Positions 1 to 61,690 of a DNA stretch of 64,000 bases are shown piece after piece. Every line of letters starts with the position of its first letter. Within the stretch, counting starts at the first letter, position 1. This DNA comes from Panopea generosa (taxonomy: Eukaryota; Mollusca; Bivalvia; Adapedonta; Hiatellidae), in assembly GCA_029582155.1 (NCBI GenBank), contig CM055897.1, positions 17,094,076-17,158,075 of the forward strand. The letters run 5' to 3'. The translations under genes and the position numbers were made by a program. The notes beneath the pieces were generated by a model. That model saw only the letters and a program-made list of their open reading frames with translations. It searched no databases and was not told the origin of the DNA.

Positions 1-1549
1 CCGCTTTGCCAAGCTTTAGCTGTTGTAGAGCTGTTCTTACTTCTGCTTGTGAAATTACGATAACACTTAATGTTGGTCTATTTTGATCTATCAATATATC
101 TGGCAGGACTATATTTTTGTCATTAAGTTGTGTTTGTAAAGTGAAATGATTATTTAAGAGATTAGCTTTTTCAAGACCGTCTGTATATATAGTGTTATTA
201 TGTTTAAGTGGGGGTATGCTAGATGAAGTGCAATTTGGCTTAATAAATGATTTTAGGAGTTTCCACCAGTCAGAGGTTGATAAGGAACTAGACTTTAACT
301 TTTCAGATAGATTGTTTAATTGTTCCTGCTTGGATTTGCGTATTTTTGTTATTGTTTCGTTTCGAAGTTTTTTATAGTTTGACCAATTCTCAAGTGTGTT
401 GGAAATTTTAGCTTTGTCATATAGTTGTTTACGTTTTCGCATAAGTTTGCGTATTTCAGATTTCATCCAAGGGGGGTCAGTTGGGCGAATTGTTACAATT
501 TTTCTTGGAATTGAGCTTTCAGCGAGTTTAATTATTGTGTTTGATATATTTTTTGCATATGTGTCAATGTCGTTGTCATAGTGGGAGTTCCAGTCGGTGT
601 TACGCGCTTCTTGTCTTAAACGGTCATAGTCGCCCTGATTATACATCCAAATAGTACGTTTGGAGCAATTTGGTAATGGTTTGCTTATGTTGATATGGCA
701 GAAGATGGGACAGTGATATCTCATATTTTGATCAAGAAAAGGTTCGCCAACTCCGCTAGCAGCAATTGTAGCGAGTTTAGATACAAACAATAAATCAATA
801 ATAGATGAAGAATATTCTGTAAAATGGGTGGGTTCTGCAATTGTTTGCGAAAGGTCAAATCTTTGCATTAGATTAATAAGTTTCCTATTAGTATTTGGTT
901 TAAGAACATCAAGGTTGAAATCTCCCATTATAATAATATCTTGTATTCCTGTATCCACAGCGAGGCCTATAGACTCTTCAATAGTATTTAATGTAGCTTC
1001 AGGAGAATTTGGAGGTCTGTAAAACGTACCATAAAGTATCTTTTTATTATTAATGTAGACTTCTATCCATAAGCATTCGATATTATTGGGTTCAAGTTCA
1101 GTTCTTCTTATTGCGTGTAATTTATCGCTTACGTATACAATAATACCACCATGAGCGTCTAATGGTCTGTCTTTACGAAATGGGACTAAATAATTGTCAA
1201 AGAATATATCATCGTTTGACACATTGTCTGTTAACCAGGTCTCGGTAAATGCTAATATATCAAAGTTGAATAATTCTGCATAGAGTAATTCTTTCTTTGG
1301 CAGAAAACTCTGGACATTGTAGTGAACTATTGACATATTATGTTGATGAGAAGTGTTTTCGTTATTGACTGGCGAATTAAGTGTATGGATTGGGCCTGGA
1401 TTGGATTCAATATCCCCATGTTGCATTATGATTATAGCTAACCAAGACAATAGTTCAAAACTTGTGAGAGACTTAAGTCCCTTAGTCTTAGATTGAGTAA
1501 GGGCGAATGTTCCTATTCTCGCCCTGTACATATTTAAATCAACACACAT
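1..1549 (-). CDS. Non-LTR retrotransposon ORF2, N-terminal part (2A motif + AP-like endonuclease), runs off left edge
   Basis: The minus-strand frame opens after a stop at 1565-1567; the first ATG is at 1549. It stays open to base 1, giving 516 in-window codons, so the protein is incomplete only because the window ends. The first 53 residues are hydrophobic around 33-42 and end in GDIESNPGP, a 2A-type ribosome-skipping motif. From about residue 73 comes an exonuclease/endonuclease/phosphatase-type endonuclease: SIVHYNVQS, FTETWL, YGTFYRPP, MGDFNLDVL, SSIIDLLFVS and RYHCPIF in the expected order. After the endonuclease there is a basic linker (MKSEIRKLMRKRKQLYDKAK). The last residues, ALQQLKLGKA, match the start of the reverse-transcriptase domain. 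In this family the enzyme nicks target DNA and primes reverse transcription there. I checked most of the 516 codons triplet by triplet and found no stop or frameshift, so it looks young. The layout resembles CR1-like elements; clade assignment needs the missing RT. Confidence 0.88.
   Translation of the reverse strand, partial: MCVDLNMYRARIGTFALTQSKTKGLKSLTSFELLSWLAIIIMQHGDIESNPGPIHTLNSPVNNENTSHQHNMSIVHYNVQSFLPKKELLYAELFNFDILAFTETWLTDNVSNDDIFFDNYLVPFRKDRPLDAHGGIIVYVSDKLHAIRRTELEPNNIECLWIEVYINNKKILYGTFYRPPNSPEATLNTIEESIGLAVDTGIQDIIIMGDFNLDVLKPNTNRKLINLMQRFDLSQTIAEPTHFTEYSSSIIDLLFVSKLATIAASGVGEPFLDQNMRYHCPIFCHINISKPLPNCSKRTIWMYNQGDYDRLRQEARNTDWNSHYDNDIDTYAKNISNTIIKLAESSIPRKIVTIRPTDPPWMKSEIRKLMRKRKQLYDKAKISNTLENWSNYKKLRNETITKIRKSKQEQLNNLSEKLKSSSLSTSDWWKLLKSFIKPNCTSSSIPPLKHNNTIYTDGLEKANLLNNHFTLQTQLNDKNIVLPDILIDQNRPTLSVIVISQAEVRTALQQLKLGKA
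1391..1417 (-). other. 2A-type ribosome-skipping motif within ORF2
   Basis: Codons 45-53 of the ORF2 read G-D-I-E-S-N-P-G-P, matching the canonical D-(V/I)-E-x-N-P-G-P signature exactly, with the usual hydrophobic stretch (LLSWLAIII) just before it. In known 2A sequences the ribosome fails to join the last G and P, releasing the upstream peptide and continuing. Here that would free a 52-residue leader and start the endonuclease protein at proline 53 (codon 1393-1391). Such motifs are documented at the N terminus of non-LTR ORF2 proteins of some invertebrates. Activity is inferred from sequence only. Confidence 0.85.
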
Positions 1550-1927
1550 TATGTAATTCCAAAGTCATAACAATCACCAGAGAGGGGCGACCGATGAGAC
1601 AAAACGAGCAAAATGACCCAGACATAACAGAGATGAAGAGAGGTAAAGGAATAAAAGTCTGAAAGAAGAAAGGATATAAAAATAATAAAGGCAACTTGAA
1701 ACGATTTGAGAATCATTCAAGTTGTTAGATGAAGGAAGGTGTTTGTGGATATTCTCATTTCATATATTATTTTTTTTTTTATATATTCGAGGTAGGAAGT
1801 AAAAAATAGAAAAAAAAATATGGAGAAGGCTACCCTTGTCAAATGAAAGTGTGCCTTACTTAGAAACAATAAATCAGTTATAACCTTAGTAACTATAGCA
1901 TAATATCTACAACAGCAACAAAAACAA
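1550..1927. other. Region upstream of ORF2, no gene seen
   Basis: This AT-rich stretch lies upstream of ORF2 on the minus strand and may be the element's inter-ORF or 5' region. No ORF, hairpin or repeat stands out apart from short A/T runs near 1769-1785 and 1801-1818. Confidence 0.4.
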
Positions 1928-2003
1928 TCATCATCATCATCATCATCATTATTATTATTATTATTATTATTATTGTTATTATTATTATTATTATTATTAC
2001 TAC

Positions 2004-2058
<55 letters not shown>

Positions 2059-2097
2059 ATTATTATATTATTTATTATTATTATTATTATTTTTATA
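1928..2097. repeat. (ATT)n/(ATC)n microsatellite
   Basis: About 170 bp of ATC then ATT trinucleotides with a few interruptions. On the minus strand it reads as an isoleucine/methionine-only frame, which is an artefact of the repeat. Confidence 0.95.
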
Positions 2098-3684
2098 AAA
2101 CAGTACATAAAAACTTCGTAGAAGTAAGTGTGAAAGAATTTAGAACATACTCATAGTTGTTAATTAGTTGACGTGATTAAATTCAGAAACTGTTACATAT
2201 CATAAAAACACTTTCCTTAAAAAAATTTAATGGACATATAAGAAAATTTTCGACGAAGAACAAAATGAAAATTAATATTTTGACATTTTGTAAACAGCAA
2301 AAACAAAACCTAATACTGATTTCAAACAAAAAAGTATTCATACCCATATCGCTTCGAAGTGTTCCTCACATAAAAACAATCAAGTAAGGTAATTATGATT
2401 TTACTATAGATCGAGCTTCATTAGCTAGTACAACCTTCTCATTCGTGCCTTATCTGTGACTAATATACAATAGTACCTTTGAGAATCTACATAATACATT
2501 CATATTTACGCAATATCCGCACGCACGCTAGCTCGTATTCAAGTAGCCATGTACGTATGGACGCACTCACATACATACACATATACGCATATTCTCATGC
2601 ACGATATCACGTAAGTTACATACACACGCACGCACACACGCACGCACGTACGCACGCGCGTGCGCGCACATGAACACATATTATTGAGAGATAATATATT
2701 TACATACATATGAAAAGGCAACACAGTCTGCAGCTGGTCATATTGTACAAACAATAGGAATTGAGGAACACAACATATATATACTGTTCCAAAAGAAAAA
2801 CAAATACAGAAAATATATATAAATATACAGGCTAAATGCCGAAACGGCTGCTGATTTGTAGGTAAACACCTGTAGGGTTATTTAGAATACTCAGCAGTAG
2901 ATAAGCAACTAAGACTGGTGGCGGTTGTGATCAATATAGTTCAGTAACAATATTATATAGCCGAGATTACATAGTGTGGTTTGTCATGCATAAACAGGGT
3001 TCTACCTAGACAGTTTTATCTATACCATCAATATTAAAATCACATGTTTCTATAATATTTTTACATGTTTTAATACAAAATGTTTAAAATCAGACACGTT
3101 TCATAGCATGAGAGTCTTCCTTTGTGGGTGCGGTTTAGTGCGGCTATGCTGCACATGTGATGTAGTTACTAAAACCACGGATATACTATTCGTGTCCAGG
3201 TCCATGGTTTCGGTTACAATTTACCATGCTCAAAGCAGATATATGCCCACACACGCTATACACTGTATAAAACACCTCAATTATCTCATCTAACGGTATC
3301 GTACAAATAGTTACATAATATCATCGTAATATGAATCTTAATAACTGCTGTAAGCATTCTAGATAAACTACCATATGTAAGTGGAGGTATGGTGATTACA
3401 GGCGTGCCACAACATGTGTACTCGCATAAAGTAAGAATGCAGTATTAATATCAGAAAATCATTTTAAATAAACACGAATGTGAGTCCATATATAGGCGGG
3501 CAGAAATGTATTATAAACTACTGTATGGAAAGCTGTCTGAGACATGTTGACTATATCGTATCTATACATCATGCATACATACAAAAGTTATTATTAAGAT
3601 TTTAATCAGTTCATTTTAGAAAACTCATGGTTTGAAGGATCACTTGGGTCACTTTGGAAACACTTCACCGCGGTCTATGATCTT
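2098..3684. repeat. CA/CACG-rich microsatellite inside a gene-less stretch
   Basis: The stretch between the two retroelement ORFs holds no gene I can support. Its only structure is a purine-pyrimidine alternating tract of CACACG, CGCACG and GCGCGTGCGC steps at about 2618-2672, preceded by looser CATACA/CGCACT steps from about 2540. The GCGCGTGCGC core is prone to form Z-DNA. Confidence 0.7.
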
Positions 3685-4689
3685 TTATATGTATCCATCC
3701 AGGTCACTTAGTCCCCGTATTCTTGATATTCTGTCATTTTTGTCTTTCACAAGAACGTTTCCGTCGTGGGTCCATGTCTTCGTGATTGAGCTATTCGCGT
3801 TTTTCACATGCTGTCGGCATTCAAATGCAATAGATTTTCTGAATTTGGTCAGGTCTTCATTCAAGTAGATGTTAATGTTTTTTTCGCGTAGTGTCTTCCT
3901 GCCCTTAATAAACGCGGTTCGCGATTTGTATGAAGTGAATTTCACGATGATTTCGCGAGACTTGTTTACTGAGGAGTCAGGCCTTCCAATCCTATGGGAT
4001 CGATCGATCTCTGAAGAGTTTAGGGTGACACCTGCTTGTTCTGCAACTTTCAGCACGATTTTGTCCGTGTCTTCACCAGCACTCTCTTTAAAGTTGCTGA
4101 TTCGTATACAGTTCCTTCTACTGTACTGTTGAAGGTCATCCTGATTGTTCTGAAGTTCAGCAATCTGACGTCTTAATATGTCATTTTCGTTTCGTAGGAC
4201 ACGAACTTCATCTACCACTTTTGCAGTTTTTTCTTGTACCTTAGAAGTAACTAGCAAGTCTATTTCGTCATGCAGAAGGTCCTTCATTTTCATTGCGATT
4301 CTGGTAATTTCGCTATCAGGAAGAGGCGCATACTGAGCTATTTGGGTGGTCAGTGTTTGGTGCGGATTATGACTCTGATCAACTAGCAGACTCTGACTGG
4401 CGGCAGCGGCGGTCGATGTATTGTCCATCATTTTAACTTCTAAAGATCCTCCCTCTAGACTACATTCAAACTCGCTGGAATCACTGTTTATTACAGACAG
4501 TTGGGAGTCCTGTTCAGTCTGGCGATATTTCTTTTCCAAATTTTCTAAATGTACGTCTGGCGAATTTTTTTTTCGTTTCGTTTGTTTGGATGCCTGTTTG
4601 AGTGCTATGTTTGCAGGTCGGTCTGGTGTACCTAGTACTGGTGCAACTGGTTTTGATTTCTGATTTTTATTTTTAGTTCCTCGAACCAT
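3685..4689 (-). CDS. Retrotransposon ORF1-like protein (coiled coil + RRM-like nucleic-acid-binding domain)
   Basis: An intact 334-codon frame. Residues 1-45 are basic and low in complexity, and 46-125 are Ser/Thr/Ala-rich. Residues about 130-188 form a coiled coil with heptad-like hydrophobics (VVDEVRVLRNENDILRRQIAEL). The segment QQYSRRNCIRISNF (188-200) opens an RRM-like fold of the L1-ORF1/transposase-22 type. It continues through IDRSHRIGRP (228-237), EIIVKFTSYKSRTAF (246-260) and INEDLT-like YLNEDLT (275-281), to a C-terminal segment with WTHDG (306-310). Such proteins trimerise on element RNA and act as chaperones for reverse transcription. It has the same orientation as the ORF2 that starts at 1549, so it may be the ORF1 of the same element, but 2.1 kb separates them, which is far for this class. 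It could instead be a separate insertion. No stop or frameshift is visible. Confidence 0.85.
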   Translation of the reverse strand: MVRGTKNKNQKSKPVAPVLGTPDRPANIALKQASKQTKRKKNSPDVHLENLEKKYRQTEQDSQLSVINSDSSEFECSLEGGSLEVKMMDNTSTAAAASQSLLVDQSHNPHQTLTTQIAQYAPLPDSEITRIAMKMKDLLHDEIDLLVTSKVQEKTAKVVDEVRVLRNENDILRRQIAELQNNQDDLQQYSRRNCIRISNFKESAGEDTDKIVLKVAEQAGVTLNSSEIDRSHRIGRPDSSVNKSREIIVKFTSYKSRTAFIKGRKTLREKNINIYLNEDLTKFRKSIAFECRQHVKNANSSITKTWTHDGNVLVKDKNDRISRIRGLSDLDGYI

Positions 4690-6728
4690 TCTTCATTGTC
4701 AATTTTTTGATATTTTACGGTAATTTTTTTGTTAGGCGGACTGTCAACTGTTTTCACCCCTCAAAATAACAATTTGTAGCAATCAGAAAATTTAAAACTT
4801 CAGAAATTACACGGGGTATACTGTTTATAAAGACTCACATACTGTCCATATATCCACAAACTCCTTAAAAATGAAACAATATCACATTTTAGTTTCAGCT
4901 TTGTTTACAAATACACCGTCACTAAACGGAAACGGAAGTCCAAAAGTATGCAACATTACATAACTTAAGTGTCAAAATACATGACCATATATGGATAAAT
5001 AGTTGTTTTTGTTTCAAATAATTCTCTGTTTTGTTGCAAAACTATATATTTGACTTTTTTTATATCTATAACAAACAAATATTAATGTTTGAAGGTGCCC
5101 AGCAAAAATTTGCATGTCACTGACACTAACCATGCCCTTTTTTTCAATACATGAATGAATAACATACTTTTGTACATGCATTAGATTCATTATCAACTAT
5201 GAATATATTCCTTACCAATTGAGGTATCTATTAGGCATATATTAAATTCCAATACTATTTTGTTTATTTTATCAATACAAATTGCAAATGAAAGTAAAGT
5301 GTTCATGAAAATCACTTTAAAGCAAGAAAATGAAACGATGAATGAAAATGATACAAAATATGGATACAGCATATTTGGCTGGACCGATAAGCTCATTGAA
5401 AAAAAGACGGTTTGCTAAAGCGCATCTCTTTACGACAAATTAGTTTGAAATAAATATATCAAAGAATATCGCGATAAGAAATATTTGTCGCGAGATGACT
5501 CGTTACTTTACAGATTTTCCAAAACTGGCATAAAAAATGGGCAGTTAAAATAGAGTTGTTGCAATAATTATATGAAAATTAGAAATTGTCATATTGGAGA
5601 ATGCTATACTGTTGAATGTGGAGAAAAATATTGTACACATTCAATAACAGACATTGAAAAAACATCATCTTTAATGAGAAAAATCTATATTCTATAGCAA
5701 GCACCATGTATTTTTATTTGACAAAAAAGTAAGAAGAACAACCGAAAGAAATCAGATGATGGTACAAAAGTTTCAAGCACAGGTTAACTAAACGCTGAGA
5801 AATTATTACGCGAATCTGTTTCGCGTCATTTCAAAGATGTCGCATTTTACAATTTACCTTAATGTCCAAGTGTAGGTAAATACTGTGTATAAGCCAGACC
5901 CAGCCGCATAACTATCAACAATGAGGAGAAAAAAATGACAGTAAAACAAAAATGGCAGTCATACGCCATACCATTAAAATGAAACGCGACAGTTTGGTGG
6001 TCGGTATATCGAAAACTGGATACAGAGTTGTTGATAACAAATATCAATGACAAAATAATGAAACAGGAAATTTCTCCATAATTCATGATCAATATAATAT
6101 TAATTGATTAACAGCGACATAAAAACAATATTGCTCATACGCGACCAACCCTATTGTCAAAAAGTATGCGCTAAAGAGTGGAAACAGTATCGCGACAAAT
6201 GTTACCATTTTTATGTGGGTGGGGTATGAATTATACATAAATAATGAGTTTCTAACACAAAAAAATGGTTTAACTTACATGAATCATGAAATCTGGATGC
6301 AGTGAATGCTCTAGACATGCTTTTGTTGTGATATATTAGCATTACTGTCTCTCTGTGTGACTTTCAAGTGTTTTTAAGTGCAAACTTCTATTCATTTTAG
6401 CCAGGATTTTGAGACAGATGGCTAAAATCAAGTCTTATCACATGATGCAGCAAAGCATATTTGCAAACATGATCATTTCTTTTTCAGTTAAATAGATGAT
6501 CTCACTTTGTGTTCCTTCCATTGAATTAAATAAATCCTGATTCCAACATTTCCATGACAAATTTTCAGCTGGTCAGTCTCATTGCCCTATTTGCTTTACT
6601 GTTTTAGCTTCAAGTTTGGTTTTGCCTGTGTGACACTTCTCTATTACACTCAAAGTCATCCATTTTTCACAAAAAAATACATTTATTTTTCCATTTAGAG
6701 GTTTCAAATACAGTATTTCCCATAGAAA
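4690..6728. other. AT-rich DNA with no recognisable gene
   Basis: The first part may be the 5' untranslated region of the ORF1 element on the minus strand. Beyond it I see only short ORFs of low complexity, scattered TCGCGA words (5469, 6189) and no repeat shared with the rest of the window. Confidence 0.5.
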
Positions 6729-19280: not shown

Positions 19281-21885
19281 ATGTTGATCTCATCGCGTCT
19301 TCGTCTTCGTCACCGTGCCTTAGCTCCATCACCACCGTGTCATTGCTCCATCACCATCATGTCATTGCTCCATCACCACCGTGTCATTACTCCATCACCA
19401 CCGTGTCATTGCTCCATCACCATCGTGTCATTGCTCCATCACTATCGTGTTATCGCTCCATCACCATCATGTCATTGCTCCATCACCACCGTGTCATTAC
19501 TCCATCACCACCGTGTCATTACTCCATCACCAACGTGTCATCGCTCCATCACCACCGTGTCATCGCTCCATCACCACCGTGTCATTGCTCCATCACCACC
19601 GTGTCATTGCTCCATCACCACCGTGTTATCGCTCCATCACCATTGTGTCATTGCTCCATCACCATCGTGTCATTGCTCCATCACCACCGTGTTATCGCTC
19701 CATCACCATTGTGTCATTGCTCCATCACCATCGTGTTATCGCTCCATCACCACCGTGTCATTGCTCCATCACCATCGTGTCATCGCTCCATCACCACCGT
19801 GTCATTGCTCCATCACCATCGTGTTATCGCTCCATCACCATTGTGTCATCGCTCCATCACCATTGTGTCATCGCTCCATCACCATTGTGTCATCGCTCCA
19901 TCACCATTGTGTCATCGCTCCATCACCACCGTGCCATTACTCCATCACCATCGTGTTATCGCTCCATCACCATCGTGTTATCGCTCCATCACCATCGTGC
20001 CATTACTCCATCACCATTGTGTCATCGCTCCATCACCATCGTGTCATTGCTCCATCACCATTGTGTCATCGCTCCATCACCATCGTGTTATCGCTCCATC
20101 ACCATCGTGTTATCGCTCCATCACCATTGTGTCATCGCTCCATCACCACCGTGTCATTGCTCCATCACCATTGTGTCATCGCTCCATCACCACCGTGTCA
20201 TTGCTCCATCACCGCCGTGTCATCGCTCCATCACCATCGTGGCATTGCTCCATCACCACCGTGTTATCGCTCCATCACCATCGTGTTATCGCTCCATCAC
20301 AATTGTGTCATTACTCCATCACCACCGTGTTATCGCTCCATCACCATTGTGTCATTGCTCCATCACCACCGTGTTATCGCTCCATCACCATTGTGTCATT
20401 GCTCCATCACCACCGTGTTATCGCTCCATCACCATCGTGTTATCGCTCCATCACCATTGTGTCATCGCTCCATCACCACCGTGTCATCGCTCCATCACCA
20501 CCGTGTCATTGCTCCATCACTTCCGTGTCATTGCTCCATCACCACCGTGTCATTGCTCCATCACCACCGTGTTATCGCTCCATCACCATTGTGTCATCGC
20601 TCCATCACCACCGTGTCATCGCTCCATCACCACCGTGTCATTGCTCCATCACTTCCGTGTCATTGCTCCATCACCATCTTGTCATTGCTCCATCACCATT
20701 GTGTCATCGCTCCATCACCACCGTGTCATTGCTCCATCACCATCGTGTCATCGCTCCATCACCACCGTGTCATTGCTCCATCACCATCGTGTTATCGCTC
20801 CATCACCACCGTGTCATTGCTCCATCACCACCGTGTCATTGCTCCATCACCATTGTGTCATCGCTCCATCACCACCGTGTCATTGCTCCATCACCATCGT
20901 GTCATTGCTCCATCACCATTGTGTCATCGCTCCATCACCATCGTGTTATCGCTCCATCACCATCGTGTTATCGCTCCATCACCACCGTGTCATTGCTCCA
21001 TCACCATTGTGTCATCGCTCCATCACCACCGTGTCATTGCTCCATCACCGCCGTGTCATCGCTCCATCACCATCGTGGCATTGCTCCATCACCACCGTGT
21101 TATCGCTCCATCACCATCGTGTTATCGCTCCATCACAATTGTGTCATTACTCCATCACCACCGTGTTATCGCTCCATCACCATTGTGTCATTGCTCCATC
21201 ACCACCGTGTTATCGCTCCATCACCATTGTGTCATTGCTCCATCACCACCGTGTTATCGCTCCATCACCATCGTGTTATCGCTCCATCACCATTGTGTCA
21301 TCGCTCCATCACCACCGTGTCATCGCTCCATCACCACCGTGTCATTGCTCCATCACTTCCGTGTCATTGCTCCATCACCACCGTGTCATTGCTCCATCAC
21401 CACCGTGTTATCGCTCCATCACCATTGTGTCATCGCTCCATCACCACCGTGTCATCGCTCCATCACCACCGTGTCATTGCTCCATCACTTCCGTGTCATT
21501 GCTCCATCACCATCTTGTCATTGCTCCATCACCATTGTGTCATCGCTCCATCACCACCGTGTCATTGCTCCATCACCATCGTGTCATCGCTCCATCACCA
21601 CCGTGTCATTGCTCCATCACCATCGTGTTATTGCTCCATCACCACCGTGTCTTAGCTCCATCACCACCGTGTCATTGCTCCATCACCATCTTGTCATTGC
21701 TCCATCACCATTGTGTCATCGCTCCATCACCACCGTGTCATTGCTCCATCACCACCGTGTTATCGCTCCATCACCACCGTGTCATTGCTCCATCACCATC
21801 GTGCTATCGTATCGTGCCATGGTATTGTCATGGTATCGACTGTACCTGCTCACAAAGCGATAGCACGATGACCCTAAGGGAAAGT
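19281..21885 (+). repeat. 22-bp minisatellite array with its flanks (about 113 units)
   Basis: The unit is CCATCACCACCGTGTCATTGCT with variants at a few positions (ACC/ATC/ATT; CATT/CATC/TATC; rare TTCC). The array covers about 19321-21803. A leading block (TCATCGCGTCTTCGTC...ACCGTGCC, 19290-19320) and a trailing block (CGATAGCACGATGACCCTAAGGG, 21857-21880) are not repeats, and both have relatives on the minus strand at 31437-31640. Because 22 is not a multiple of 3 and the unit lacks stops in every phase, all three forward frames stay open for 770-860 codons. These frames share one repetitive 22-residue peptide in three phases, so I do not call a protein. Confidence 0.95.
20143..21631 (+). 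repeat. 836-bp higher-order repeat inside the 22-bp array
   Basis: Rare variants recur at an exact spacing of 836 bp (38 units): ACCGCCG at 20211 and 21047; TTCCGTG at 20521 and 21357, and at 20653 and 21489. The stretch from about 20143 to 20795 is matched at 20979-21631, so a 650-bp or larger block was duplicated recently. Confidence 0.85.
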
Positions 21886-23538
21886 TAATTTCATCTTTAT
21901 TATAATCCACTTATCTCATATTGCAATAATAACATTAAAAGAAAAAAAATTACATACGAACATCAGCTGAAATGATAAATTGCACACGTGCCTTTTCATA
22001 GCAATACATTATCCATGTATGCCTGCCCTACAACGAAGATTCAGGTGTTGTGTGCTACATGTATTTGAAACTACTAGGAAAGTGTTTAATTTAATTTAAA
22101 AAGTAACATCAAAATGTTGTCAGTCATGCTAATCTGTATCTATGTAATCATGATTTAAGATTAAAGGAAGTATATTGTCATTTAACTCCCAATATGGTGT
22201 CATAAATAAACATTACAAAGATATACATAAAACTTACATACTTATGAATGCAAGGTATATGGTTATATATTACCGCATTATTATTAGCGTCGGGTTTCAG
22301 AAGCTAAATCATTTGATTTGTTTACATTTCCATTCTGAACGAACTGCCTTCGGTATTCCGATCAACCGTCGTAAACATCATTGTGTATATATGCATAGTT
22401 TACGACCAATCAGGTGCGTGCACAGCTATTTTCGGAAATGCGAGGCTATGTTCGGAATGTCTACGAAGATAAATATAAGTATTGACAGTTCTTTTTTGCG
22501 TCCCGGTATCCACACACTTTTTTATGTGCACATTTTTTTTAGATTTAATTTATTATTTCTCCATTAGCAGTTTAAATGTGTAGTATGTCAATATAAACCC
22601 TTTAGCATTTGCTAAATCTACAGACACACTGTTGTGAAATAATTGTATTCAGCTTATATTATATAAATTAATGATTAACTCATTTGAATCGTGCTTTCTA
22701 TGTAGTAGTGTAAGTTTAGTATGTCCCCGACGTACAGACAATATGGTGGGTTATATGGGATACTTTCTTAACATATCTAAGCAAAGAGTAAATGGTTGCT
22801 ATTTGCAAAATTAACATGTAAATACTACTCGTAAATCAGACATATATAAAGCTTTTAGCACGCATGCATTCCTGAAATATATGTATACAGCATTTTGTTT
22901 TATCCATAAACGCAAATAGTCCAAATCAGATGTTCTACGCATTGCTTGCCTATCGAAATAGGTCGTCACATGGGCATTGAGTTTAACTTGTGATATTGCG
23001 GAATGTGCCAAAACGATAAAATACATGCAATTGAGAACGAATAACATTTCGTTTTATAATGAATGATATATGAAAATTTTTACGTTGAACTATTTTTAGA
23101 ACTATAAGAAATAAGTACCATGACTCTTTTACAGTTAAACAATGTCAAACAACAGATATACACAATGTGGCGACGTGTTTATTTCTAAAGTTTGAGAAAA
23201 AATCACTAATTTTACAGAAGCATGTTCATGCATCATCCACTGGCAATAAATTTCTTGGGAAGTTGTTAACCATAGTGAACCGATTTTGTCTGTAGAAGCA
23301 CGCGATCTGATCTCTGTCTTCATTCTTCGTCATTGAACCACTGTTTATGTTTGACCTTCTAGCTTCGAATCATTGTGCATGTGTTCCGCATATTCTAATA
23401 TTGGTCAATGATGCCTGCAAGTATTCCAGGGGTATGTGTACAGCACACTGGTCTCACATACAACCAAACATGTTTGTTTTGCAAATGTTTGAAAAGTAAA
23501 TGTATGTCATTAACCAGCAATATAACCCCTTTATACGC
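21886..23538. other. Gene-less stretch
   Basis: The longest frame (22175-22567, plus) is 130 codons with no motif and irregular composition; I do not support it as a gene. No repeat is recognised. Confidence 0.4.
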
Positions 23539-33862: not shown

Positions 33863-34795
33863 CCGGCATTGACCGTCAACTAAATTCTTCCACGTTCTTC
33901 TCTGGCTTAAACCGCTAACTAGATCCTACCGCGATCTTCTCTGGCTTTTACCGCCAACTAGATCCTTCCGCGTTCTTCCATGGCTTTGACTCCAACTAGA
34001 TCCTTCTGTGTTTTCTCTGGCTTCGACCTCCAACTAGATCCTTCCGTTTTCTCTGGCTTTGACCGTCAACTGGATCCTTCTGCGTTCTTCTCTGGCTTTG
34101 ACCTTCAACTAGATCCTTCCACGTTCTTCTCTGGCTTTGACCGCCAACTGGATCCGACCACGTTCTTCTCTGGCTTTGACCGCCAACTAGATCCGACCAC
34201 GTACTCCTCTAGCTTTGATCGCCAACTGGATCCTTCTGTGTTCTTCTCTGGCTTTGACCGCCAACTGGATCCATCTGTGTTCTTTTCTGGCTCTGACCAC
34301 AAACTAGATCCTTCCGCGTTCTTCTCTGGCTTTGATCGCCAACTGGATCCTTCTGTGTTCTTCGCTGGCTTTGACCGCCAACTGGATCCTTCTGTGTTCT
34401 TCTCTGGCTTTGACCGCCAACTAGATCCTTCTGTGTTCTTCTCTGGCTTTGACCGCCAACTAGATCCTTCCGTTTTCTCTGGCTTTGACCGTCAACTGGA
34501 TCCTTCTGCGTTCTTCTCTGGCTTTGACCGTCAACTAGATCCTTCCACGTTCTTCTCTGGCTTTGATCGCCAGCTGGATCCGACCACGTTCTTCTCTGGC
34601 TTTGACTCCAACTATATCCTTCTGTGTTCTTCTCTGGCGTTGACCGCCAACTAGATCCGACCGCGTTCTTCCCTGGCTTTGACTCCAACTAGATCCTTCC
34701 TTGCTCTTCTCTGGCTTTGACCGCAAACTAGATCCTTCCACTTTCTTCTCTGGCTTTAACTGCAAACTAGATCCTTCGCTTTCTTCTCTGGGACA
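33863..34795 (+). repeat. 39-bp minisatellite, about 24 units
   Basis: The unit is TTCTCTGGCTTTGACCGCCA followed by ACTAGATCCTTCCGCGTTC. Because 39 is divisible by 3, one plus frame (33980-34654) encodes 13-residue repeats of the type FFSGFDRQLDPSV, and minus frames encode 13-residue SQRRTQKDPVGGQ-type repeats. In-frame stops and units 3 bp short interrupt the frames, no signal peptide or flanking domain is present, and both strands are open, so a genuine protein is unlikely. Confidence 0.93.
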
Positions 34796-36570: not shown

Positions 36571-39500
36571 GCAGGGTCCATGTAATGTATCCACTATATC
36601 CACGCAGGAATAAATCACATATGCAACTATATATACAGGGATTTATCACTATGGATCTATGTAGGGCTGTATCACTCTAGATCCATGCAGGGATGTATCA
36701 CTCTAGATCCATGTAGGGATGTAACACTCTAGATCCATGCAGGGATGTATCAATCTATATTCATGCAAGGATGTATCACTGTAGATACATGAAATGATGT
36801 ATTACACTATATCCATGCAGGGATGTATCACATGTGCAATTATATATAAAGGGATTTATCACTAGGGATCTATGCAGGGCTGTATCACTCTAGATTCATG
36901 CAGGGATGTATCACTCTATATTCATGCAAGGATGTATCAATCTAGATACATGTAATGATGTATCACACTAGACCAATGCAAGGATGTATCGCACTATATT
37001 CATGCAGGGATGTATCAGTCTAGATCCATGTAATGATGTATCACACTAGATCTATGCAGGGATGTATCACACTATATTCATGCATGGATGTATCACTCTA
37101 GATCCATGTAATGATGTATCACACTAGATCCATGCAAGGATGTATCACATGTGCAATTATATATCACTCTAGAATCATACAGAGATTTATGGATCTATGT
37201 AGAGCTGTATCACTTTAGATCAATGCAGGGACGTATCACTCTAGATCCATTTAGGGATGTATCACTCTGTATCCATGCAGACATGTATCACTTTATATCC
37301 ATGCAGGGATGTGTCACATGTGCAATTATATATCACTCTAGACTCATACAGGGATTCATCACTATGGATTTATGTAAAGCTGTATTATTCTAGATCCATG
37401 CAAGAATGTATCACTCTAGATCCATGTAGGTATGTATCACTCTGTATCCATGCAGAAATGTATCATTTTATATCCATGCAGGGATGTATCACATGTGCAA
37501 TTATATATCACTCTAGACTCATACAGAGATTCATCACTATGATTCTATGTTGAGCTGTATCACTCTAGATCCATGCAGGGATGTATCACTCTAGATCCAT
37601 GCAGATATATATGATATGTATAATTCTATACATATGTAGGTATGTATCACTTTATATTCATGCATTAGTGTATCACTTTAAATCCATGTAGGGATATATC
37701 ATTCTATATCAATACAGGGATGTATCACTCAATATTCATGCAGGGATATATCACTCTATATCCATGCAAGGATATATCACTGTATATTCATGCAGGGATG
37801 TATCATCCTTGATCCATGCAGGGATGTATCACTCTATATCAATGCAGAGATGTATAATTCTATACGAATGCAAGTATGTATCACTCTAGATCCATGCAGG
37901 AATGTTTTTCTCTAGATCCTTGCAGGAATGTATCACTCAATATACATGTAGGGATGTATTACTCTATATCCAGGCAGGGTTGTATCACCCTAGATCAATA
38001 CATGGCTATATCACTCTGTTTCTATGCAGGGATGCATCACTACTCTATATTCATGCAGGGATGTATCTCTCTATATCCATGCAAGGATGTATCACCCTAG
38101 ATCCACGCATGGCTATATCAAATTATATTAATGCAGGGATGTATAACTCTTGATCCATGCAGGGATGTATCACTCCATAACAATGCAGGGATGTATCACT
38201 TTATATCCATGCAGGAATGTATCACTCTATATCAATGCTGGGATGTATCACTATGTAACCATAAAGGGATGTATCACTTTATATTCAAGCAGGGATGTAT
38301 CACTCTATATTCATGCAGGTATGTATCACTCTATACCCATGCAGGGATGTATCACATGTGCAATTATATATCACTCTAGAATCATACAGAGATTTATGGA
38401 TCTATGTAGAGCTGTATCACTTTAGATCAATGCAGGGACGTATCACTCTAGATCCATTTAGGGATGTATCACTCTGTATCCATGCAGACATGTATCACTT
38501 TATATCCATGCAGGGATGTGTCACATGTGCAATTATATATCACTCTAGACTCATACAGGGATTCATCACTATGGATTTATGTAAAGCTGTATTATTCTAG
38601 ATCCATGCAAGAATGTATCACTCTAGATCCATGTAGGTATGTATCACTCTGTATCCATGCAGAAATGTATCATTTTATATCCATGCAGGGATGTATCACA
38701 TGTGCAATTATATATCACTCTAGACTCATACAGAGATTCATCACTATGATTCTATGTTGAGCTGTATCACTCTAGATCCATGCAGGGATGTATCACTCTA
38801 GATCCATGCAGATATATATGATATGTATAATTCTATACATATGTAGGTATGTATCACTTTATATTCATGCATTAGTGTATCACTTTAAATCCATGTAGGG
38901 ATATATCATTCTATATCAATACAGGGATGTATCACTCAATATTCATGCAGGGATATATCACTCTATATCCATGCAAGGATATATCACTGTATATTCATGC
39001 AGGGATGTATCATCCTTGATCCATGCAGGGATGTATCACTCTATATCAATGCAGAGATGTATAATTCTATACGAATGCAAGTATGTATCACTCTAGATCC
39101 ATGCAGGAATGTTTTTCTCTAGATCCTTGCAGGAATGTATCACTCAATATACATGTAGGGATGTATTACTCTATATCCAGGCAGGGTTGTATCACCCTAG
39201 ATCAATACATGGCTATATCACTCTGTTTCTATGCAGGGATGCATCACTACTCTATATTCATGCAGGGATGTATCTCTCTATATCCATGCAAGGATGTATC
39301 ACCCTAGATCCACGCATGGCTATATCAAATTATATTAATGCAGGGATGTATAACTCTTGATCCATGCAGGGATGTATCACTCCATAACAATGCAGGGATG
39401 TATCACTTTATATCCATGCAGGAATGTATCACTCTATATCAATGCTGGGATGTATCACTATGTAACCATAAAGGGATGTATCACTTTATATTCAAGCAGG

Positions 39501-41375
39501 GATGTATCACTCTATATTCATGCAGGTATGTATCACTCTATACCCATGCAGGGATGTATCACTCTATATTTCTACAGGGATGTATCACTCAATATCCATA
39601 AAGGGACATATCACTCTATATCCATACAGGGATGTATCACTTTATATTCACGCAGGTATGTATCATTCAATACCCATGCAGGGATGTATCATTCTATATT
39701 TATACAGGTAATTTTCATTCTATATCCATGCAAGGATGTATCACTCTATATCCATACAGGGATGTATCACTCTTTATGCATGCACGTATGTATCACTCTA
39801 TACCCATGCATGCAAGGATGTATCACTCTATATTCATGCAGTTATGTATCACTATATACACATGCAGGGATGTATCTCTCTATATCTGTACAGGTATGTA
39901 TAACTTTATATATATGCAGGATGCATAACTCTATATCTCTACAGGTATGTATCACTCTATATCCATGGAGGGATGTATCACTCTATATCCATATATGGAT
40001 GTATCACTCTATATCCATGCAGGGATGTATCACTATATTCATGCAGGTATGTATCACTCTATATCCATACATGGGTGTATCAATATATATCCATAAAAGG
40101 ATGTATCACTCTCTTTATATATACAGGGATGTATCACTTTATATCTCTAAATGTATGTATCACTTTATATCCATGCAGGGATGGATCACTCTATATCCAT
40201 GCAGGGATGTATCATCCTAGATCAATGTATGTATGTATCACATTATATTCATGCAGGGATGTATCACTCTAGATCCATGCAGGAATGTATCACTCCATAT
40301 CAATGCAGTGATGTATCACTATATATCCATGCAGGTATGTATCACTCTATATCCATGCAGGGATGTATCATACATTATCCATGCAGGGAAGTATCACTCT
40401 TTATCCATACATGGATGTATCACTCTATATTCATGCAGGTATGTATCACTCTAGATCCATGCAGATATGTAAGCTATGTATAATTCTATACATATGCAGG
40501 TATGTATCACTTTATATCCATGCAGGGATGTATCACATGTGCAATTATATATCACTCTAGACTCATACAGAGATTCATCACTATGGTTCTATGTAGAGCT
40601 GTATCACTCTATATTCATGCAGGGATGTATCACTCTATATCCATACATGGGTGTATCACTCTATATCCATGCAGGGATATATCACTCTAGATCCATGCAG
40701 GGATGTATCACTCTAGATCCATGCAGATATATATGTTATGTATAATTCTATACATATGCAGGTATGTATCACTGTATATTCATGCATTGGTGTATAACTT
40801 TAAATCCATGCAGGGACATATCATTCTATATCAATACTGGAATGTATCACTCAATATTCATGCAGGGATATATCACTCTATATCCATGCAAGGATGTATC
40901 ACTGTATATTCATGCAAAGATGTATCATCCTTGATCCATGCAGGGATGTATCAATCTATATCCATACAGGGATGTATCACTCTTTATCCATTCAATGATG
41001 TATCTCTCTATATCCATGCAGAGATGTATCACGCTAGATCCATGCAAAGATATATCACACTAGATCCATACAAATATATATCACTCTAGATACATGCATG
41101 GATGTATCACTCTAGATCCATGCATGAACGTATCACTAGATGCATGCATGGATGTTTCACCCTAGATCCCGGCATGGATGTATCACTCTATATTCATGCA
41201 TGGATATATCACTCTAGCTCAATGCATGGATATATCACTCTTGATCAATGCGTGGATGTATCACTCTAGATCAATGCATAGATGTATCACTCTACATTTA
41301 TGCATGGATGTATCACTTTAGATCAGTTCTGGGATGTATCACTGTACATACATTCATGCTGGAACGCATCGCTCT
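36571..41375 (+). repeat. 26-bp minisatellite, about 4.8 kb
   Basis: The unit is approximately ATCCATGCAGGGATGTATCACTCTAT with variants (ATTCATGC, AGATCC, CACTTTA). Occasional marker units CACATGTGCAATTATATATCAC interrupt it at about 36832, 37147, 37318, 37493, 38354, 38525, 38700 and 40534. Many overlapping plus frames of 60-290 codons (MYHSISMQGCITLYP-type) simply reflect the stop-poor unit in different phases and are not genes. Confidence 0.95.
37136..39549 (+). repeat. 1207-bp tandem duplication within the 26-bp array
   Basis: 37136-38342 and 38343-39549 are adjacent direct copies. All landmark variants and the frames inside them (for example 37257/38464 and 37876/39083) are identical at a constant 1207-bp offset; I saw no difference. 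This means either a very recent duplication or an assembly artefact. Confidence 0.9.
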
Positions 41376-50714: not shown

Positions 50715-51345
50715 TTGAAATTCTGTAAGTTAATACTTGGTGTACGTAAACAAACCTCTTATTTGCTGTTTACGGTGAATTAGGAAGGTATCCATTATAT
50801 GTAATTACTAAGGAGAAGTCATTAAATTTCTGGTTGAAAATAAGAAATAATGTTAACTCACCTATATATAGTAAGTATATTGATATTCTTAACAATGTAG
50901 ACGGTAATTGTTGGGCTAATCGTATAAGTACAATTATCGATAACTTATGGTTTTCAAATGTGATAAACGATTTTAACAGTAACACGAATTATTTAACTTT
51001 ATTTATAAGGCGTGTACGGGATAAGTTCATACAGGAATGGAACACTGTTGTTAATAATTGTCTTAAACTTGATTACTACGTGAAATTAAAAAAAAAAAGA
51101 TTTCTGTTACGAGGGTTATTTAGATAAAATTAATAACGATAATTTAAGAAAGTTATTCTCTAGCTTGAGATTAAGTTCACACTCTCTTGAAATAGAAACG
51201 GGTAGATATAGTGGAATAGACCGTTCAAACAGATTTTGTAAATTATGTACTCAAAATGTAGTCGAAACGGAATATCACTTCTTATTGTGTTGTACGTGGT
51301 ATACTGACATTCGATATGATTTAATCAATATTCGAAAACAACCCC
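50715..51345 (+). pseudogene. C-terminal end of a non-LTR reverse transcriptase protein
   Basis: Across frames this reads KFCKLILGVRKQTS, then VYGELGRYPLYVITKEKSLNFWLKI, ...RDKFIQEWN..., then YLDKINNDNLRKLFSSLRLSSHSLEIETGRYSG, and a cysteine/histidine module RFCKLC...ETEYHFLLCCTWY. This is the characteristic tail of a common invertebrate non-LTR ORF2 (after the palm/thumb), with its zinc-finger-like CxxC...H...C. One frameshift lies near 50750 and another in the A-run at about 51089-51100. No 3' end of this element is seen: the next element's sequence follows directly. Confidence 0.75.
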
Positions 51346-54300
51346 GATGGAAACACTTACTGGATTTAACTACTGTTAACAAAATAAAACAGTTAGGATT
51401 TTTTAAGTACAGAGGGACAAGAGGTGGTCTAATAAATACTCAATCACAAAAGTACAGTCATCGTGGTGTAAATTTCGACAATTTAAGGACTCTATCTGAA
51501 GCTATTGTATCAATCGTTCAATATAGAAATATTACAAAGCAACTTTGCATAAGACCATGGGTTTACTTGAACAATATTATCAAGGTTAATTGTAAATCTC
51601 AAAGAACTATTGTTAGTGAAAAGAAACTTCAAGTTTGTTGTTTAAACACAAGATCAGTTAAAAACAAAACCGTTTCCATCTGTGATTACATAAGATCAAG
51701 CAACATTGATGTATTAGCATTAACTGAAACATGGCTTGGTAATACTGTTAATATGAATTTATAAATGAATTTGTATCTGATGGCTTTACTATCAAGCATG
51801 AGGCACGGAATGGCGTGAGACGAGGTGGAGGTGCAGCTCACATATTCAAAAATGAAATAACAGTTACTATTTTCACATCTAGTAAAGACAAAAAAATCAT
51901 AAATTTGAACATATAGATTGCAAGCTAGAGATAAATGGGTTCAATCTCCAACTAGCCATAGTATACAGATCACCACCATCAATAGATAATGGCTTAAAGA
52001 CTAATATTTTCTCAGACAAAGAATGACCAGCATTCTTTGTTGGATATGCTACCATTGAAAGAGAAATAATTATTGTTGGTGACATAAACTTACATCTTGA
52101 TAAACCTTCTGAACGTGATACTAAGAAAGTCAATAGTGTACTACAGTCTTATGGCATGCAGCAACATGTGAATGAGCCGACTCATATCCGAGGTCACACC
52201 TTGGACGTTGTTATTTCCAGAGATACAAGTAACATCGTATCCAACATCTATATAACAGATACTGGACTCTGTGATCACCTCGGCAACATGGCGTGCGACC
52301 ATTTTGCAATAACGTTCAGTGTCTGTGCCTTGAAACCACACCCCATTAGGAAGACAGTAACCTTCAGAAAACTCAGATCTTTTGACATTAATTCATTTAA
52401 GAATGACTAAGCTTTGTGTGATCTAATGACTGTCCAAAGCTGAAATGTTGATGATCTGGTATCTGCATACCCGGATGGTTTGTCATTCTTAATTGAAAAA
52501 CACGCACCCATGCGTTCAAAGACAATTACTCTTCGGCCAAACTGCCCGCGGTATACCAAGGATCTCCATGATGCAAAACACTTACAACGTAAACTTGAAC
52601 ACAAATGGCTAAAATCTAGACTTAAAAATTGACCATCAAATATATCGCAATCAGTGTGCTTTAGTAAATGCATTACTCAGAAAAGCGATTATTACATGGA
52701 TCAGATCGAGTCTTGTGGTCGTGACTCCAAAAGTCTATTTTAGATCACCAAACGTCTACTCGGTTGCAATACAGACAGTTCATTTTCTCCATCCAGTTCT
52801 TCTCCAAAGGATATCGCCCAAAATTTAAGTGACTTTTCACAGATAAAATCGAAAAAATAAGACACAATAACAGCCAAAGAACGCAATTGTGTGTATGTCG
52901 AATGAACCTGAGACTACCATTGATCATCAACTTTTTGCTCTGACTCCTGAAGTGAAATCCATCACACTTAAGGCGCCAAATAAATCAAGTGATCTTGACC
53001 CAATTCCTACCTGGTTATTAAAAGTATGCCTAGATGAACTTGTGCCATCCATCAACAATAACATAAACGCATCCCTAGATTTATCGTACGTTCCGCAAGA
53101 ATATAAATCTGCAAAAATAAGACCTTTCCTGAAAAAACCTGGTCTTGTCCCAAATATACTTAATTCTAATGACCGGTGTCAAATCTTCCAATTATATCTT
53201 AAGTTCTTGAGATGGTTGTTGATTCGCGCCTTGAACGACACATGCCTGAGAACAAACTCCATGAGATTCATCAGTCAGCATACAGGAAATTTCATTCTAC
53301 TGAATCAGCACTTCTGAAAGTACAAAATGACATTATTCATTCGCTTGACCGGAGCTGTGTGACTGTACTTGTACTGTTAGACATGTTGGCTGTGTTCGAT
53401 ACAATTGACCATTGTACACTATTACATCGTTTGGAACATGAATTTGGAATCTCAGACAAGTCACTTGCATGGATCTCATCATATTTAAGTAATCGGTTTC
53501 AGACTGTATGTGTTGAAGGCGAATCATCGAAGCCTGTGCTAATGAAATATAGTGTACCTAAGGGATCTGTATTGGGACCTAAATATTTCATCATGTACAC
53601 TAAACCAGATGGTGATATTTGCAGAAGTCACGGACTACTTCATCATTTCTATGCATACGATTCTCAAATCTATATTTCTTTCAAACCAATTTATGTTATC
53701 AATAGTAGTGAAGCATTACATCGAATTGAGTGCTGTCTGGCAGATATTGTTTCATGGATGAGCGATAACATGCTTAAACTTAACACAGATAAAACTGAAG
53801 TTATGTTGCTCACATCTAAACACAACGCCAAATTCGCTGATAGTGTCTCGGTGAGGGTTGGTGAATCACTGATACAATCATCTGACTGTGTGAGAAATCT
53901 AGGTGCATTTTTTACCCCAAGCATGGACATGGAGCAGCATGTAAATTTGGTGTGCAGGTCTGCATATGCCTAACTTCGAAACATTGGTCGTATCAGATGA
54001 TTTCTCACAATCGACGCAACAAAATCTCTTGTGAACTGTTTAGTAACCTCACGTTTTGATTACTGTAATTTCCTCCTCTTTGGTGTTTCGAATACTGTAT
54101 TAAATAAACTTCAAAGGGTACAGAATACTGCTGCCCGCATTATCACCAGAACATCTTGCTACGAGCATACCACTCCACTGTTAAAGGAACTTCACTGGTT
54201 ACCTGTGTCATACAGGATCCATTACAAACTATTGACTCTACATATAAAGCTCTACATGATCAGTCTCCACAGTACATATCTGACATGATTCAAGTGTATA

Positions 54301-59265: not shown

Positions 59266-59651
59266 AGCTTCGAGCAACACTAAATGCCCTCCGTTATTCA
59301 AAGAACCAGACATAATAAAAACACAAATCGGGTCGCATATTTGGTAAGCGGACTCAAGAGTTACATGTTACATATGATCTTAACATTGAATATGTCTGTA
59401 CATATACAGATAAAGATGTCATTTAGATGGTAAGCGATGGTAGGGGTATTTTTATAAGATATGTGACAGAATGACATGGAAAATAAAATACTTCCTGCAA
59501 CGTTTACAAGACATCGTGGGCTTCCCGATGAAATGGGTTCAAGTTTATCTCTACGCTAAACTGCTGGAGTCAAGTATATACTATTTAGCAACACGATTTA
59601 TATAAGAAAAATATTATCATAGAATACTATATGATAGTTTGCGACATCATG
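59266..59651. other. Spacer before the GT-rich arrays
   Basis: I recognise nothing here. Confidence 0.4.
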
Positions 59652-61690
59652 TTATCGTGATTAAATCCGCTGTATTTGTTTGTTGTAGCCGTGTCTGTAG
59701 TTGATTGCGTTGTATTTTTGTTGTTGTGGCCGTGTCTGTAGCCGTTTGCGTTGTATTTGTATTGTTGTGGCCGTGTCTGTAGTTATTTGTGCTGTATTCG
59801 TGTTGGTGTGGCCGTGTCTGTAGTTGTTTGTGCTGTATTCGTGTTGGTGTGGCCGTGTCTGTTGTTGTTTGTGCTGTATTCGTGTTGGTGTGGCCGTGTC
59901 TGTAGTTGTTTGTGCTGTATTCGTGTTGTTGTCGCCGTGTATGTAGTTGTTTGTGCTGTATTCGTATTGTTATGGCCGTGTCTGTAGTTGTTTGAGCTGT
60001 GTTCATGCTGTTGTGGCCCTGTCTGTAGTTGTTTGCGCTGTATTCGTGTTGGTGTGGCCGTGTCTGTAGTTGTTTGTGCTGTATTTGTGTTGTTGTGGCC
60101 GTGTCTGTAGTTGTTTGCATTGTATTCGTGTTGTTGTGGCCGTGTCTGTAGTTGTTTGTGCTGTTTTTGTGTTGGTGTGACCGTGTCTGTATTTTTTTGT
60201 GTTGTATTCGTGTTGGTGTGGCCGTGTCTGTAGTTGTTTGTGTTGTATTCGTGTTGTTGTGGCCGTGTCTGTAGTTGTTTGTGCTGTTTTCGTGTTGTTG
60301 TGGCCATGTCTGTAGTTGTTAGTGCTGTATTCGTGTTGTTGTGGCCGTGTCTGTAGTTGTTTGCGCTGTATTCGTATTGTATTGGCCCTGTCTGTAGTTG
60401 TTTATGCTGTATTCGTGTTGTTGTGGCCATGTCTGTAGTTGTTTGTGCTTTATTCGTGTTGTTGTTGCCGTGTCTGTAGTTGTTTGTGCTGTATTCGTGT
60501 TGTTGTGGCCGTGAATGTAGTTTTTGAGCTGTATTCGTGTTGTTGTAGCCGTGTCTGTAGTTGTTTGTGCTGTATTCGTGTTGTTGTGGCCGTGTCTGTA
60601 GTTGTTTGTGCTGCATTCGTGTTTTTGTGACCGTGTCTGTAGTTGTTTGTACTGTATTCGTGTTGCTGTGGCCATGTTTGTAGTTGTTTGTGTTGTATTT
60701 GTGTTGCTGTGGCCGTGTCTGTAGCTGTTTGTGTTGTATTTGTGTTGCAGTGGCCGTGTCTGTAGTTGTTTGTGCTGTATTCGTGTTTTCGTGACCGTGT
60801 CTGTAGTTGTTTGTACTGTATTCGTGTTGCGGTGGCCGTGTCTGTAGTTGTTTGTGTTGTGTTTGTATTTCTGTGGCCGTGTCTGTAGTTGTTTGTATTG
60901 TATTTGTGTTGCTGTGGCCGTGTCTGTAGTTGTTTGTGTTGTATTTGTGTTGCTGTGTTCGTGTCTGTAGTTGTTTATGTTGTGTATGTGTTGCTGTATC
61001 CGTGTCTGACGTTGTTTGTGTTGTATTTGTGTTGTTGTGGCCGTGTCTTTAGTTGTTTTTGCTGTATTTGTGTTGCTGTGGCCGTGTCTGTAGTTGTTTG
61101 TGCTGTATTCGTGTTGCTGTGGCCGTGTCTTTAGTTGTTTGTGCTGTATTCGTGTTTTTGTGACCGTGTCTGTAGTTGTTTGTACTGTATTCGTGTTTCT
61201 GTGGTTGTATCTGTAGTTGTTTGTGTTGTATTTTTGTAGCCGTGTCTGTAGTTGTTTGTGTTGTATTTGTGTTGCTGTGGCCACGTCTGTAAGTGTTTGT
61301 GTTGTGTTTGTGTTGCTGTGGCCATGTCTGTAGTTGTTTGTGTTGTATTTGTGTTGCTGTGGCCGTGTCTGTAGTTGTTTGTGTTGTGTTTGTGTTGCTG
61401 TGGCCATGTCTGTAGTTGTTTGTGTTGTATTTGTGTTGCTGTGGCCGTGTCTGTAGTTGTTTGTGCTGTATTTGTGTTGCTGTGGCCGTGTCTGTAGTTG
61501 TTTGTGTTGTGTTTGTGTTGCTGTGGCCATGTCTGTAGTTGTTTGTGTTGTATTTGTGTTGCTGTGGCCGTGTCTGTAGTTGTTTATGCTGTATTTGTGT
61601 TGCTGTGGCCGTGTCTGTAGCTGTTTGTGCTGATTTGTTGTTGTGGCCGTGACAGTAGTTGTTTTAAATGTGTTTGTGTTGTTTCGACTG
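59652..61690 (+). repeat. 41-bp GT-rich minisatellite, about 50 units
   Basis: The unit is CTGTAGTTGTTTGTGCTGTA followed by TTCGTGTTGTTGTGGCCGTGT. The plus strand is about four-fifths G+T. Variation is concentrated at TTCGTGTTGTT/TTTGTGTTGCT. The minus strand has no stops in any phase of most units, giving frames of 157, 277 and 461 codons (Thr/Asn/Gln/His-rich) that are by-products of the repeat. Confidence 0.95.

Follow-up and report, generated by a model that had tools for sequence, protein, structure and literature searches.

Is the short peptide at the head of a retrotransposon enzyme a mere by-product of translation, or a product with work of its own? The question is raised by a stretch of 64,000 nucleotides (nt) from the genome of Panopea generosa (assembly GCA_029582155.1, contig CM055897.1, positions 17,094,076 to 17,158,075; hereafter the window), in which the second open reading frame (ORF2) of a long interspersed nuclear element (LINE) starts with a leader that ends in a ribosome-skipping 2A (StopGo) core. 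We propose that leader and core form a cassette in which skipping at Gly52-Pro53 probably frees a conserved 52-residue leader from the ORF2 enzyme.

Leader and 2A core at the start of ORF2

The motif lies on the minus strand, running from 1549 down to 1391; the plus-strand translation of 1391-1549 contains stops in the frame translated. The leader has the following parts:

1394 to 1549, minus strand: leader of 52 residues, predicted to be released (from the ORF reading, the alignment of related leaders and codon-position differences)
1505 to 1549, minus strand: N-terminal box MCVDLNMYRARIGTF, leader residues 1-15, with 15 distinct versions across the genome
1418 to 1459, minus strand: hydrophobic stretch preceding 2A, residues 31-44 (Kyte-Doolittle 2.18 over 12 residues)
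1391 to 1417, minus strand: 2A/StopGo core GDIESNPGP, residues 45-53, an exact core with its predicted skip site between 1394 and 1393
1550 to 1561, minus strand: pre-ATG sequence TGGAATTACATA, similar in the short-leader families read

A first-pass annotation, which gave no strand, had described an exact D(V/I)ExNPGP core at residues 45-53 and had placed this 2A-type motif, ahead of the endonuclease, at 52 residues from the start of a non-LTR (non-long-terminal-repeat) ORF2. Both descriptions hold: the core reads GDIESNPGP, and the endonuclease domain (PF03372) occupies residues 76-272. ORF2 begins at the ATG at 1549 and reads MCVDLNMYRARIGTFALTQSKTKGLKSLTSFELLSWLAIIIMQHGDIESNPGP ahead of the endonuclease. 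Only five sense codons lie between the in-frame stop and this ATG, which sets the leader at 52 residues, and the core is in-frame coding on both sides. DIESNPGP agrees with the D(V/I)ExNPGP signature, and the glycine before its D, at p11, is a stated preference for StopGo (PMC12846837). The predicted skip falls between Gly52 (1396-1394) and Pro53 (1393-1391). A hydrophobic stretch lies before the core, but IIMQHG does not belong to a named upstream-context class. A structure prediction placed a helix at residues 30-44 with low confidence (pLDDT 61), and we do not rely on it.

Across six related leaders, N50-P53 and 12 leader residues are invariant, while the stretch that follows the core (54-72) has no invariant residue. 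This pattern bears on whether translation might instead begin at Met72 (MSIVHYNVQ), with leader and 2A as untranslated leftovers. A methionine does stand directly ahead of the endonuclease, but both the leader and the core show conservation, the other five aligned sequences lack Met72, and the leader is constrained at the peptide level (see below), making such a start very improbable.

That the leader matches nothing known, as had first been supposed, is superseded within this genome, where the leader type is present in many families. A Pfam search of the window leader gave no match up to E 1, and among 13 members there were two weak matches, in one member each. A profile of 13 leaders searched against the PDB gave three weak matches (E 0.29, 1.5 and 4.7), two of which, LLKQAGDVEENPGP and LLTCGDVEENPG, appear to be engineered 2A tags. 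N-myristoylation of an MG start was considered and rejected as not general, the window family starting with MC and its sisters with MA or MS.

2A cores across the genome

The degenerate DNA pattern for D(V/I)ExNPGP had 980 matches (493 + 487) in 1.474 Gb, against 2 (2 + 0) for the reversed pattern; 2A cores in this genome are more than chance. The 100 places that we read are the first listed of the 980 and come from contig C1 and from C2 up to about 35.6 Mb. A dispersed repeat with mostly interrupted frames accounts for 41 of them (DVERNPGP in 40, DMERNPGP in 1), and the figure of 980 therefore overstates the coding cases; the remaining 59 are LINE-like or unclassified.

The high-copy DVERNPGP repeat includes L004, L024, L032, L033, L040 and L043, the last still open over 174 codons and with the N-terminal box; its appearance is that of a relative of the leader-2A elements, either fossil or non-autonomous. 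A second N-terminal 2A style occurs at L014, L028, L045, L046 and L081, where 2A precedes a PHD-like, Cys-rich ORF with no box; 'PHD-like' was assigned by eye except at L028, where the match scores 17.0 bits, below the cut-off of 24.

The N-terminal box is linked to 2A

The box begins at the ATG with a consensus of roughly M-G-x-D-I-x-x-W/Y-R-x-x-I-G-x-F. A search fixing R, I/V/L, G and F/I recovered 15 distinct boxes upstream of 2A. At positions left free, M1 is present in 13, D4 in 12 and I5 in 10 (L in 2 more), and at position 8, limited by the search to a set, W occurs in 8, Y in 4 and H in 2. In the first set of 49 places, which includes the window copy, a strict box is present within 330 nt upstream of 2A in 29, while controls gave 0 downstream, 0 for reversed sequence, 0 for the reverse complement and a mean of 0.16 in shuffles (maximum 2). 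Among the 100 places the strict box lies upstream of 41, namely 36/59 outside the DVERNPGP repeat and 5/41 inside it (reversed 0/100, reverse-complemented 0/100). The misses include the five PHD-like ORFs without any box, decayed box-like stretches recognised by eye (L005, L023, L035, L036, L082 and L088), and L072, whose upstream sequence is N and was scored as no box.

Searched alone, without 2A, a W-form box pattern that does not match the window's own Y-form had 287 genome matches against 1 for its control. On C1, where the lists were compared by eye, 12 of 23 boxes go with an exact 2A, 6 more with at least 5/7 core positions and 2 with neither; the other 3 belong to a DIEQW repeat that was left unread. 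We then hand-picked 20 box places from the 100 listed of the 287, leaving out the DIEQW repeat. Twelve were places without a listed exact 2A nearby (all 8 such on C1 and 4 on the covered part of C2). The other 8 lie beyond the listed 2A stretch, in the remainder of C2, on C3 and on C5; in choosing them we favoured box versions that had not come up earlier, and one, L142, carries an exact core. A 2A-like octapeptide with at least 5/7 core positions lies downstream of 15 of the 20 boxes (reversed 0/20, shuffles 0.4%). Three of the other five (L128, L131 and L137) have octapeptides of 4/7 and one (L139) of 3/7, at a fitting distance, and L123 looks rearranged; these weaker octapeptides are no better than the best reversed controls, 4/20 of which reach 4. 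No box family in the 20-place sample is clearly without 2A.

The spacing between the two parts differs among groups. In loci with a preserved frame, the box arginine precedes the D of 2A by 37 residues in the window's group, by 45 in L043 and the ORF1-type group, and by 68-71 in a third. With so variable a spacing, the box probably does not belong to the segment that 2A requires within the ribosome, and its retention as peptide across families despite this varying distance suggests that the leader is a separate working part.

Could the leader instead serve dual targeting, the unskipped protein keeping it as a signal or membrane sequence and the skipped protein not? The first-pass annotation had likewise suggested that the leader may act as a targeting peptide. 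Its N-terminal position and the hydrophobic stretch ahead of 2A speak for such a role, and the 2A sequences of sea-urchin NLR proteins provide a precedent (Roulston et al. 2016, PMC4981915). Those versions, however, are 26 aa long, whereas the conserved part here is a charged and aromatic box at residues 1-15 of a 52-residue leader, a box that does not look like a signal peptide. The hydrophobic stretch, moreover, adjoins 2A and may serve skipping itself, many 2A sequences being hydrophobic next to the core anyway (PMC4981915). We consider dual targeting unlikely.

Outside this genome, the longer box pattern with MG had 0 matches in viral contigs, and a tblastn search of phages gave a single match at E 0.9, which was disregarded. 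No title, abstract or passage covered by a literature search describes the leader box; the most relevant papers lay outside that coverage, and the box may be in print there.

The leader is constrained as a peptide

Differences between leaders concentrate at third codon positions, with 64/40/91 at positions 1/2/3 over the leader (p 8e-5) and 16/9/23 over the box only (p 0.025), three leader pairs being treated as independent in both tests. Ratios of nonsynonymous to synonymous differences (pN/pS), all with pS near saturation, are 0.44 for the leader and 0.35 downstream in the window copy vs L006, and 0.46 and 0.43 for L018 against L048. Long-leader families show faster evolution in the leader (0.50-0.96) than in the enzyme (0.31-0.41 in comparisons of at least 50 codons). 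The third-position excess and these ratios together indicate that the leader is translated and constrained, less than the enzyme.

The same data weigh on the proposal that conservation of the leader acts at the level of RNA or DNA (as a start-site context, an internal ribosome entry site, a promoter or a ribozyme) and that the peptide is a by-product. In its favour, short-leader families resemble one another in the 12 nt ahead of the ATG, with TGG[AT]AT[TA]ACATA in four types and CGGTGTAACATA in a fifth, and ORF2 sits 2.1 kb behind ORF1, so that some unusual initiation is needed. Yet box residues use differing synonymous codons (AGR/CGN, ATH, GGN, TTY), third positions are in excess among the differences, and Rfam assigned no family at gathering score at 11 loci, which makes a purely nucleic-acid role improbable. 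A ribozyme or other structured RNA near the start was likewise rejected, the Rfam search of these 11 loci (53,254 bases) having returned five matches with E of at most 5, all short of the gathering score.

The window element and its family

The leader is part of a minus-strand LINE some 7.25 kb long. About two thirds of it, from the 5' end, lie inside the window, and the remaining 2.3 kb or so beyond window position 1. Its parts are:

1 to 4939, minus strand: in-window part of the element, with its 5' end at 4939 (ACTTCCGTTTCC...), where the alignment with the independent insertion L012 begins at the identical base
4947 to 4958, no strand: target-site duplication, 5' copy, a 12-nt exact repeat TAATGTTGCATA present in both flanks
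3685 to 4689, minus strand: ORF1, 334 aa, without leader-2A (ORF translation; coiled-coil and RNA-binding-like by eye)
1550 to 3684, minus strand: ORF1-ORF2 spacer, 2135 nt, AT-rich, with 68 ATGs; also present in L012, L013 and L069
2 to 1549, minus strand: in-window part of ORF2, open to the window edge
734 to 1324, minus strand: endonuclease domain, PF03372, ORF2 residues 76-272, E 7.9e-12

The partner of the 12-nt duplication lies outside the window at about C4:17091752-17091763, and 7 nt separate the 5' copy from the first base shared with L012. L012 has its own 13-nt duplication and a 3' end common to four copies. Duplications of 12-13 nt at the window copy, L010 and L012 fit an APE-type (apurinic/apyrimidinic endonuclease) non-LTR retrotransposon. 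In the sibling copy L013, endonuclease and reverse transcriptase (RT) share one frame (PF03372, 1.5e-10; PF00078, 2.1e-33). Judging by its C-terminal features, the element presumably belongs to the CR1/L2 group.

A genome-wide search with ORF2 residues 1-120 gave 1441 candidates, of which 150 were scored; all 150 match (E up to 1.3e-22), 10 of them starting past residue 16 and so missing the box. Among these 150, at least 13 places, the window copy included, are identical over the 120 residues, and at least 10 keep a 1121-codon open frame at 96-100% identity. The DNA of L010 is 99.6% identical to the window copy over 4083 bases. The family has thus amplified recently, and 'recently active', as first proposed for this open frame, suits the family and not the window copy: ORF2 is open to the window edge, but ends after 589 residues, about 220 nt outside it.

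The window ORF1 had no Pfam match at 0.001, and resembles the ORF1 of L018 (30% over 107 aa, E 1.4e-5, tblastn). The spacer holds an ATT-type microsatellite at about 1928-2095 (by eye). At L011, the one locus read of a sister family about 55% identical to the window family over the first 120 residues of ORF2, the spacer is about 1.9 kb, similar in length and not in sequence: the best match between the two families' spacers is 26 nt (E 0.004), their ORF1s being 57% identical. A gene hidden in the spacer was rejected, given a longest open stretch of 116 codons and the 26-nt match between families. A separate short transcript starting upstream of ORF2 was rejected as well, since copy starts vary (window positions 1768, about 1914, 4232 and 4939), which points to ordinary 5' truncation; shorter, 5'-truncated copies include L010, L069 and L070.

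Elsewhere in the window, endonuclease-like and RT-like ORFs recognised by eye at 51165-51764 and 53212-53973 (both plus strand) are perhaps pieces of another LINE. Long frames of short tandem peptide repeats at 19281-21888, 33980-34688, 39357-40220, 59647-61704 and 63506-64000 are probably minisatellite arrays and not genes.

Similar leaders on L1-like elements and natural core variants

A similar leader opens ORF1 of L1-like elements (L018/L049 and L048/L050). Among solved structures, LINE-1 ORF2p ranks first for the L050 RT (2e-32), which places L048/L050 in the L1 group, and L048 ORF1 falls under the cut-off for Transposase_22 (17.1 vs 22.4 bits); L018/L049 were called L1-like by eye only. 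In L048 (3430-3432) and L050, ORF1 and ORF2 share a frame with a single TAG between them, a possible site of readthrough or restart. The ORF2 of L018/L049 lies in a different frame from ORF1.

The core itself varies among relatives. DIAENPGP (p14=A) occurs in L125, L126, L135 and L136, SVEENPGP (p12=S) in L140, and DVHENPGP (p14=H) in 7 of 16 window-family relatives hand-picked from the lower half of the 150-place ORF2 table, the L064 version ending in Q. Li et al. 2026 (PMC12846837) found p14=H in viruses, and every natural variant that they assayed had an activity of about 90% or higher; the sections consulted name neither p14=A nor p12=S.

We tentatively extend the proposal: box, leader and 2A might form a portable cassette, either moved between distant LINE groups, and between ORF1 and ORF2, or kept since these groups split, which would give a free micropeptide with its own function and tolerate DIAENPGP and SVEENPGP.

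A model for leader release

What the core is known to do in viruses and LINEs, taken together with conservation, leads us to infer the following course. Translation of ORF2 would start at the ATG at 1549 and the ribosome would make the 52-residue leader; at the 2A core the Gly52-Pro53 bond would fail to form, releasing the leader, and the ribosome would continue into an endonuclease-reverse transcriptase beginning with proline. The role of 2A may be to free the enzyme from the leader peptide, or the peptide from the enzyme. Binding could fall to the released peptide or to the emerging nascent chain; our guess is that the box binds a host factor associated with the ribosome or the ribonucleoprotein as the chain emerges, after which 2A would free the enzyme. 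A released leader with a function of its own would be a new product of retrotransposons and would go some way to explaining why LINEs retain 2A; the natural core variants offer ready test pieces for the skipping mechanism.

Comparison with known systems

Odon et al. 2013 reportedly described 2A-like sequences in animal APE-type non-LTR elements of the Rex1, Crack, L2, L2A, CR1 and Ingi clades and associated them with one-ORF elements. Core motif and kind of element are the same as in that work; here the element has two ORFs, 2A lies on ORF2 behind an N-terminal box, and a similar leader opens an L1-like ORF1. That non-LTR elements carry 2A is already established (PMC4981915, PMC11512398, PMC5972666); it is the leader that looks new. 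With trypanosome L1Tc/ingi (PMC4981915, PMC5972666) the window element shares 2A in a non-LTR element; those elements are reported to have a ribozyme/promoter hallmark, whereas Rfam found no ribozyme family in the 11 loci searched here. Sea-urchin NLR 2A signal sequences (PMC4981915) likewise combine an N-terminal 2A with a hydrophobic tract near the core, but they span 26 aa and belong to cellular immune genes, whereas the retrotransposon leader described here has 52 residues and carries a box. The StopGo variants of viruses (Li et al. 2026, PMC12846837) share p14=H and the G before p12=D, while p14=A and p12=S, both present here, are absent from those named in the sections consulted. The reticulate evolution of ORF1 in the Jockey group (Metcalfe and Casane 2014, PMC4120745) resembles what may have happened in our elements in that domains are exchanged between LINE lineages, and the main text of that paper contains 0 occurrences of '2A-like' and '2A sequence'. 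Finally, cellular genes are described as seldom containing StopGo (PMC12846837), against which stand the 980 core matches of this genome, part of them in young LINE families with intact frames.
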